Source: an uncultured Helicobacter sp. | Lineage (GTDB): Bacteria > Campylobacterota > Campylobacteria > Campylobacterales > Helicobacteraceae | Reading direction: 5' to 3' | DNA: 38,318 bases | Assembly (NCBI GenBank): GCA_947177485.1 | Contig: CAMWUR010000015.1 | Coordinates: 1 to 38,318, forward strand | In this document: positions 2,157-38,318 of the stretch, one piece after another | How the letters are laid out: each line of letters begins with the position of its first letter | How positions within the stretch are numbered: the stretch's first letter is position 1 | Translations under genes and position numbers: made by a program | The notes under the pieces: generated by a model | The model's database searches: none | Told to the model about the DNA's origin: nothing | What the model saw: the letters and a program-made list of their open reading frames with translations, nothing else

Positions 2157-2204
2157 AAGGGGGATAAGGGGAACTACTTGCGAAGCGTTCCCCTTATCCC
2201 CCTT
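2157..2204. repeat. Perfect 18-bp inverted repeat with 12-nt loop
   Basis: AAGGGGGATAAGGGGAAC (2157-2174) is exactly complementary to GTTCCCCTTATCCCCCTT (2187-2204). The loop is TACTTGCGAAGC. The C-rich right arm leads directly into element C (2221-2347). A related, imperfect C-rich run (minus strand of 38295-38318) abuts the second copy of element C at the right edge of the window. It has no T-run, so a simple intrinsic terminator is unlikely. Confidence 0.8.
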
Positions 2205-2220
2205 AACCACCAATCCCTAG

Positions 2221-2347
2221 CACGCTTCTTCAATGTGCGCTACGCTTGTATATGTCGCACTCCACAGCACTTCGTCTATGTTATGCCTTGCGGCTCAAAC
2301 ATAGACGTTGCGCGCTGTGGCTGGGACATTCACACGATGAGCAATGG
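2221..2347 (+). repeat. Element C, copy 1: folded intergenic element with three-tier stem
   Basis: An outer stem CCACAGC/GCTGTGG (2262-2268 with 2314-2320), a middle stem CGTCTATGTT/AACATAGACG (2273-2282 with 2298-2307) and an apical GCC/GGC pairing form one long hairpin. It is preceded by a conserved arm, AATGTGCGCTACGCTTGTAT. A diverged copy in inverse orientation lies at 38170-38294, with different but still complementary middle-stem bases, and a half copy lies at 32586-32645. It could be a non-coding RNA-like repeat or a non-autonomous mobile sequence; function unknown. Confidence 0.7.
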
Positions 2348-2351
2348 TAAA

Positions 2352-32342: not shown

Positions 32343-32490
32343 TCGACGTGGTTGATTGCCACGAGGCTAACGCCTCTCGCAATGACAAGAATGAAGATCT
32401 GTTTTGTCATTCTGAACTCGCATAAGCGAGTAAAGAATCTCAAACTGTGAGAATCATTGAGATGTTTCGCTAACGCTCAACATGACAAAT
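32343..32490. repeat. Type B mosaic of short palindromic modules after the lptG-like gene
   Basis: Three modules are clear: GATTGCCACG...TCGCAATGACA (about 32352-32388), TGTCATTCTGAACTCGC-ATAA-GCGAGT...AGAATCTC (about 32405-32440) and GAGATGTTTCGCTAACGCTC...CATGACA (about 32459-32487). Each has constant arms around a different small hairpin. Confidence 0.75.
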
Positions 32491-32543
32491 GGAGGTGCGG
32501 TTTCAACCGCACTTAAAATATGTGCGACTAAAGTCGCACCTCC
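32491..32543. repeat. Type A palindromic repeat, copy 4
   Basis: It reads GGAGGTGCGG at the left and CGCACCTCC at the right, with hairpins GTGCGGT-TTCA-ACCGCAC and GTGCGAC-TAAA-GTCGCAC. The order of the GGT/ACC and GAC/GTC stems is opposite to the copy at 280-341, so this copy is the same element read on the other strand. Confidence 0.85.
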
Positions 32544-32585
32544 AAGTCCCCCAACAGATTCCACAATCTCTTATTTCACCATTTC

Positions 32586-32645
32586 ATGGCATGAATGGAG
32601 ACGTGTGTGCTGTGACTAGGGTTATTAGAACTAGTGAGCAATGGC
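32586..32645 (+). repeat. Element C, copy 3 (right half only)
   Basis: GGCATGAATGGAGAC and GTGCTGTG followed by GTGAGCAATGG match the right half of the copies at 2221-2347 and 38170-38294. The left arms of the stems are missing, so it cannot fold the full hairpin. The rest of the 32301-32761 gap (32646-32761) shows only a weak type B fragment near 32735. Confidence 0.55.
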
Positions 32646-32761
32646 ATATAAAAAGATTATGAAATCCAAAGCAGCGCTGTGTGAGCTACACTAGCTTGCG
32701 CGTACTTATCTGGCGATTCTAAGAATCTAGCTATCGTCACTGCGAGCGAGAATCCCCAACC

Positions 32762-38160: not shown

Positions 38161-38169
38161 TCATTTTGC

Positions 38170-38318
38170 TATTACTCATTATGCAATCGTCCCAACCACA
38201 GCGCAATGTCTCCATTCATGCCAAAGGCAATTATGGAGACGCCGCGCTGTGGAGCATTGGCACATACAAGCGTAGCGCACATTGTAAAAGCGTGCAGGGG
38301 TTTGGGGGTGTTAGGGGG
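38170..38318 (-). repeat. Element C, copy 2 (inverse orientation), with C-rich flank
   Basis: On the minus strand the order is a C-rich run (38318-38295), CACGCTTTTACAATGTGCGC with TACGCTTGTATG, then outer stem CCACAGC/GCTGTGG (38196-38202 with 38246-38252) and middle stem GTCTCCAT/ATGGAGAC (38208-38215 with 38233-38240), with an apical TGCC-TTT-GGCA. It matches copy 1 in layout and in most bases outside the middle stem. The window ends inside the C-rich flank. Confidence 0.7.

Follow-up and report, generated by a model that had tools for sequence, protein, structure and literature searches.

A modular palindromic intergenic repeat restricted to three related Helicobacter species

Known families of intergenic palindromic repeats

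The neisserial intergenic mosaic elements (NIMEs, dRS3/RS) consist of short inverted repeats nested about longer repeat families, and they occupy intergenic sequence. ERIC and Correia-type MITEs are likewise intergenic and non-coding, with a palindromic fold, and belong to the same size class as the repeat described here, element C. Other families are connected with tyrosine transposases. The TIR repeats of the tyrosine-transposase TIRtrons make up longer inverted-repeat families of moderate abundance, and the genomes that contain them have Y1 genes (PMC3733652). In addition, the long inverted repeats that border some RAYT genes elsewhere belong to dispersed families (PMC3733652).

Element C is a modular palindromic repeat found at intergenic sites in three related Helicobacter species. 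Its many copies fold into a hairpin, with stems that are fully paired in some copies and mispaired in others. It is probably a clade-specific, non-coding, dispersed palindromic repeat that was spread and homogenised as DNA.

Copies of the element

The window, that is, the whole stretch of DNA that was analysed, is an entire contig (C15) of 38,318 bases from a genome of 2.04 Mb in 97 contigs. Two copies in opposite orientation, both with the outer stem CCACAGC/GCTGTGG, had been predicted in it together with a right-half copy. Direct reading confirms the two copies and their outer stem, and the right-half copy is real. Their parts are as follows.

2157-2214, plus strand: left module L of copy 1, containing a G-rich/C-rich hairpin, AAGGGGGATAAGGGGAAC (2157-2174) / GTTCCCCTTATCCCCCTT (2187-2204)
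2215-2261, plus strand: link from L to core in copy 1, CCCTAGCACGCTTCTTCAATGTGCGCTACGCTTGTATATGTCGCACT, common to at least 20 genome copies
2262-2320, plus strand: core hairpin of copy 1 (outer stem, internal loop, inner stem), read from the sequence, the copy alignment, and RNA and ssDNA folds
2262-2268 and 2314-2320, plus strand: outer stem of copy 1, CCACAGC / GCTGTGG, from the sequence
2273-2282 and 2298-2307, plus strand: inner arms of copy 1, CGTCTATGTT / AACATAGACG, from the sequence
2321-2350, plus strand: right tail R of copy 1, terminating in GATGAGCAATGGTAA, from the copy alignment
32586-32646, plus strand: truncated copy with loop, 3' inner arm (ATGGAGAC type), 3' outer arm and right tail, the 5' arm missing, from the sequence and nhmmer (E 8.6e-05)
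32647-32704, plus strand: K module, a hairpin 3' of the truncated copy's right tail, common with the G001 C17 and G003 C86 copies
38166-38195, minus strand: right tail of copy 2, from the sequence and the copy alignment
38196-38252, minus strand: core hairpin of copy 2, inner stem GTCTCCAT/ATGGAGAC, from the sequence and RNA and ssDNA folds
38253-38318, minus strand: link and partial L module of copy 2, cut at the contig end, from matches to copy 1 and to L modules

The ends first assigned to the two copies were too narrow. Copy 1 is longer, with its left hairpin at 2157-2204 and a right tail that runs to 2350, and copy 2 reaches the contig end at 38318, its left-module match covering 38258-38318. 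Outside the stem the copies share 49 nt at 86% identity (2206-2254 on the copy 1 side), in agreement with the prediction. The inner stems differ and are nevertheless paired in each copy, GTCTATGTT/AACATAGAC against GTCTCCAT/ATGGAGAC. Both copies fold better than all of 200 shuffles, as RNA (z -4.5 and -3.75) and as ssDNA (z -3.9 and -7.1). The RNA fold of copy 1 pairs whatever part of the L hairpin was included.

The element is not a chance resemblance, because a blastn search with copy 1 returns 44 matches in its own genome, where a covariance model locates the element at about 50 places. This model, R1, was built from an alignment (A1) of 64 copies. It matches copy 1 at 2250-2344 (92.6 bits), the match on copy 2 lies at 38172-38265 on the minus strand (65.7 bits), and the 78 matches in the 2.04 Mb genome reduce to the roughly 50 non-redundant places once the palindrome's two strands are merged. 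The predicted dispersed family thus exists. It is present in 3 of 60 Helicobacteraceae genomes tested, all of one genus, and was not found in the other 57. A pattern search for the core DNA in genome contigs gives 27 stretches from two uncultured Helicobacter MAGs, CAMXAV01 and JAAVGZ01; an exact 24-mer from the link has no match in genome contigs, nor has element C any in collections of phages, plasmids and viral contigs. For many copies the nearest contig end is no more than a few hundred bases away, and the element and its associated repeats lie near many of the contig breaks in this clade's draft assemblies.

Modular structure

The full unit consists of L, link, core hairpin, R tail and sometimes K, and is larger than first described. 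The core measures about 60 nt and the complete composite about 200-250 nt; coverage by other copies around the core falls in steps, reaching about -240 and +190. The L module (TTTTCTAAGGGGGACAAGGGG...TATCCCCTTATCCCCCTTA) forms a hairpin by itself in copy 1, and homologues of it lie upstream of most cores that have enough upstream sequence. The R tail terminates in GAGCAATGGCAA. K is an additional hairpin 3' of R, found only in a subset of copies and ending in a T-run in some. Most copies keep the order L-core-R, several have an inverted right tail in place of L, and some are missing L or K.

Copies of element C can also stand head to head, or with their L modules facing, as at G000 C72:427-1079, C82:274-863 and C53:5-498 and at G001 C102:3414-4128. 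Between such pairs lie other short repeats, sometimes inverted pairs of a GGAG-tagged REP, which produces concentric inverted repeats. The same REP occurs in the window.

37-64, 73-100, 278-305, 317-344, 1873-1929 and 32482-32546: copies of the GGAG-tagged REP, mostly inverted pairs

Element C is thus dispersed and intergenic and mixes in modular fashion with other short palindromes, in the manner of an intergenic mosaic palindromic repeat.

The short repeats GTCATTGCGAG, GTCATTCTGAA and GTCATGTTGAG adjoin element C at window positions 1938, 2059, 2368, 32376, 32406, 32476 and 37269 and at many other loci.

The head-to-head pairs and the contig ends suggest a long inverted-repeat transposon with a collapsed middle. 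This candidate was rejected, as the middles at C72, C82, C53 and G001 C102 consist of short repeats and hold no gene. An integron attC-like site, with its stem-spacer-stem form, was rejected as well, since the R boxes RYYYAAC/GTTRRRY fail to match when judged by eye.

Stem pairing and covariation

From the paired changes between copies, the original prediction concluded that the stems covary and that it is the folded form which is maintained. In alignment A1, 31 of the 64 copies have a perfect inner stem, and in 33 one or more of the inner pairs are not Watson-Crick; one particular inner pair is unpaired in 24. Unpaired stem changes in many copies, which the prediction itself took to count against it, are therefore largely what the family displays.

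Within the proposed stems, 93.7% of the cells of alignment A1 are paired, compared with 91.0 +/- 0.3 in shuffles, and both sides are changed in 31 cells against 7.5 expected. Pairs in which any double change occurs are not in excess, at 5 against 4.5 in shuffles. This combination arises because there are few stem types, visible as inner-stem haplotypes, each of which was inherited by many copies.

Covariation was also compared with a tree-aware null, in which substitutions were randomly replaced on a FastTree tree of 92 copies; it is a simplified in-house version of R-scape, with a tree built with the stem columns included. Inner-stem covariation, at 0.197, exceeds this null (0.064 +/- 0.027, p<0.001), so that the claim of covarying stems holds for the inner stem. 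It fails for the outer stem, which has no covariation above the null (p=0.81). Overall pairing is 94.7% against 89.5% under the null (p 0.001). Pair-breaking changes number 56 against a null of 56.1, and pair repairs 14 against 8.2, a marginal excess (p 0.07), these event counts being approximate because recombination distorts the tree of paralogues. With 33 of the 64 copies mispaired, breaking changes at the level of the null and repairs only marginally raised, retention of the folded form does not follow from the paired changes. Some selection for pairing may still act, since inner-stem covariation and overall pairing do exceed the null.

The GGAG-tagged REP serves as a positive control for stem pairing. 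Of its 115 copies, 100 have perfectly paired stems, in which two positions swap A-T/G-C and C-G/T-A, and element C behaves differently.

One explanation for the hairpin is a structured non-coding RNA, or an mRNA 3' element, with a fold under selection. The low folding energies of both copies, the covariation of the inner stem and the T-run after the K hairpin of some copies are all consistent with this. Half of the copies are mispaired, however. When only Watson-Crick pairs are counted as paired, 13 of the pair-breaking events give G-U, 25 give A-C and 31 give other mismatches. G-U has no advantage over A-C, so there is no sign of the tolerance of G-U that a selected RNA helix should show. A search of Rfam with element C returns nothing at gathering or relaxed thresholds, and around copy 1 there is no promoter-like or terminator-like site. 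Furthermore, L and K are not universal among copies, and the element occupies tandem, convergent and divergent gaps alike. Of the three candidates originally named (structured RNA, single-strand transposon relic and protein-binding cruciform), the structured RNA is the weakest, and it is very unlikely.

The outer stem is 98% conserved and its flanks 75-76%. Such conservation suggests a constraint on sequence, for example for predicted binding, rather than on pairing alone. The cruciform candidate would be a protein-binding palindrome, an architectural or recombination site with the outer stem as its putative binding sequence. Across the three species, 93 copies conserve CCACAG/CTGTGG at 99%, with flanks at about 75%, and at several shared sites the orientation of the core to the neighbouring gene varies between species. 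Recent spread can also give high similarity between copies, though, and head-to-head pairs truncated at contig ends could account for the differences in orientation. This proposal is quite improbable.

Probable copying between arms

The internal loop of the core is usually asymmetric, GCGCTGCG against CGTTGCGCGC. In the copies on G001 C3, G000 C87 and G000 C72, the 5' side of the loop is instead an exact 8-nt complement of its own 3' side. The resulting 8-bp matches are GCGCAACG/CGTTGCGC or a copy-specific variant, GCACAACG/CGTTGTGC, and two further copies have near-exact arm matches. There are also chimeric stems that combine arms of two types, such as that of C83, with 5' CTCCATT and 3' AACATAGCC.

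Template switching during replication is a documented origin of compensatory changes of several bases, and multi-base matching changes in the arms are what it produces (PMC8794818). Paired changes between two copies of a repeat need not mean selection on RNA structure. They are no proof of it here, because the family of about 50 copies includes mismatched intermediates and arm-copied variants.

Genomic context

For 16 copies there is enough flanking sequence on both sides to place them. Eight lie in tandem gaps, six in convergent and two in divergent ones, and the only ORFs overlapping their cores are short and probably spurious. A Pfam scan of 30 neighbouring ORFs names ordinary genes (PGK, SelA, FeoB, Hsp90, flagellin and similar) and no transposase.

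Three copies (G000 C81, C61 and C76) adjoin pentapeptide-repeat ORFs, at loci L029, L013 and L023.

The copy upstream of rpsB is in the same place in G003 and absent from that place in G002 and G004. Comparison of empty and occupied sites among G001, G003, G002 and G004 yields no pair with exact ends, the contigs of sister MAGs breaking at the element and G002 and G004 being only about 70% identical; with contigs so broken or species so distant, these comparisons establish no target duplication. At G000 C54, G001 C3, G003 C74 and three other shared sites, the orientation of the core to the neighbouring gene is reversed between species. These differences could be flips, or head-to-head pairs cut by contig ends.

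A RAYT-type gene and its own REP

The presence of a TnpA_REP-like (Y1) transposase had been proposed as a check on the transposon candidate. The genome does contain a single PF01797 gene (C13:29031-29312, 44 bits), in an ORF at L041:2849-3376 with the motifs MPNHLH and YYDKAIR. Its closest NCBIfam model is the REP-associated tyrosine transposase, at 63 bits, below the cut-off of 80. The repeats flanking this gene on both sides are a different REP, GGAG+GTGCGACTTTAGTCGCAC (GGAGGTGCGACTTTAGTCGCAC), at 2640-2668, 2811-2837 and 3391-3420 of L041, and no copy of element C is among them. The gene and the GGAG-tagged palindromes together appear to form a REP/RAYT system of Helicobacter. The GGAG REP and the repeats GTCATTGCGAG and GTCATGTTGAG are all common in the three species that have element C, in stretches that are enriched for element neighbourhoods and whose repeat densities are thus not genome averages; 385 kb of G002 and G004 contain none.

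An AbiP2-type reverse transcriptase (PADLOC AbiP2, E 3e-186) is encoded at L041:699-2330, adjoining a type I specificity subunit and the RAYT-type gene.

Element C could be the relic of a single-strand transposon, a REP-like or MITE-like hairpin that a Y1 (HUH) transposase acting on ssDNA once mobilised in trans. A RAYT-type gene does occur in the genome, the core is a stable ssDNA hairpin on either strand, and its outer stem is near-invariant, as expected of a recognition site. The dispersed long inverted repeats around some RAYT genes elsewhere provide a precedent (PMC3733652). Nevertheless, the gene found here has its own REP rather than element C at its borders, that REP is far better paired (100/115 perfect, against 31/64 inner stems), and 5' of the core there is no GTAG-like tag. 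The two other species with element C, represented by MAGs only about 60% complete, have no match to a Y1 gene. Such an origin is doubtful.

Evolution of the repeat

If element C spread and was homogenised as DNA, its arms would be kept alike mainly by replication or repair, in which one arm is copied from the other (quasi-palindrome template switching). Copies within one genome would also convert each other, making the family more uniform. Selection on an RNA fold would not be required for the likeness of the arms. Dispersal, the weakest step, would be non-autonomous. Either a trans-acting enzyme would recognise the hairpin or the near-invariant outer stem, or copies would recombine with one another.

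In a more specific version, a putative hairpin-specific recombinase or transposase would act on the core hairpin and its near-invariant outer stem. Such an enzyme would scatter the core, flip it, swap the flanking modules and build nested concentric palindromes around classical REP pairs. This is a speculative idea, and rather improbable.

Comparison with known systems

The MITEs of the ERIC and Correia type have in common with element C the properties given above. However, the ends of a single unit of element C, TTTTCTAAGGGGG... and ...GAGCAATGGCAA, are not mutual inverted repeats, and no parent IS was found. Terminal inverted repeats common with a transposase-bearing element, by which a MITE is recognised, are thus lacking. 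Like the TIRtrons, element C is a moderately abundant longer inverted repeat in a Y1-bearing genome (PMC3733652), but no Y1 gene with element C flanks was found.

NIMEs are similar in that element C is likewise intergenic amid nested short inverted repeats, a likeness of arrangement with no claim of a sequence relation. The difference is that the longer unit of element C carries its own hairpin.

The REP and BIME elements with RAYT (TnpA_REP) share several features with element C: they are intergenic, palindromic, clade-specific and of high copy number, with inverted pairs, stem covariation and a RAYT-type gene in the genome. A REP measures 20-40 nt, whereas the core of about 60 nt in element C lies within a composite several times that length. 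Element C has no GTAG/GGAG tag, and 5' of CCACAGC there is no conserved tetranucleotide, the upstream columns being about 76% conserved. Its stems are imperfect in half of the copies, and the RAYT gene of this genome is flanked by another repeat.

Going by open-licence full texts, a palindromic repeat set with a REP and a RAYT-type gene has apparently not been reported in this Helicobacter clade. By analogy, element C would be a new family of a previously known sort, the bacterial intergenic mosaic repeats of the BIME, NIME and ERIC type.
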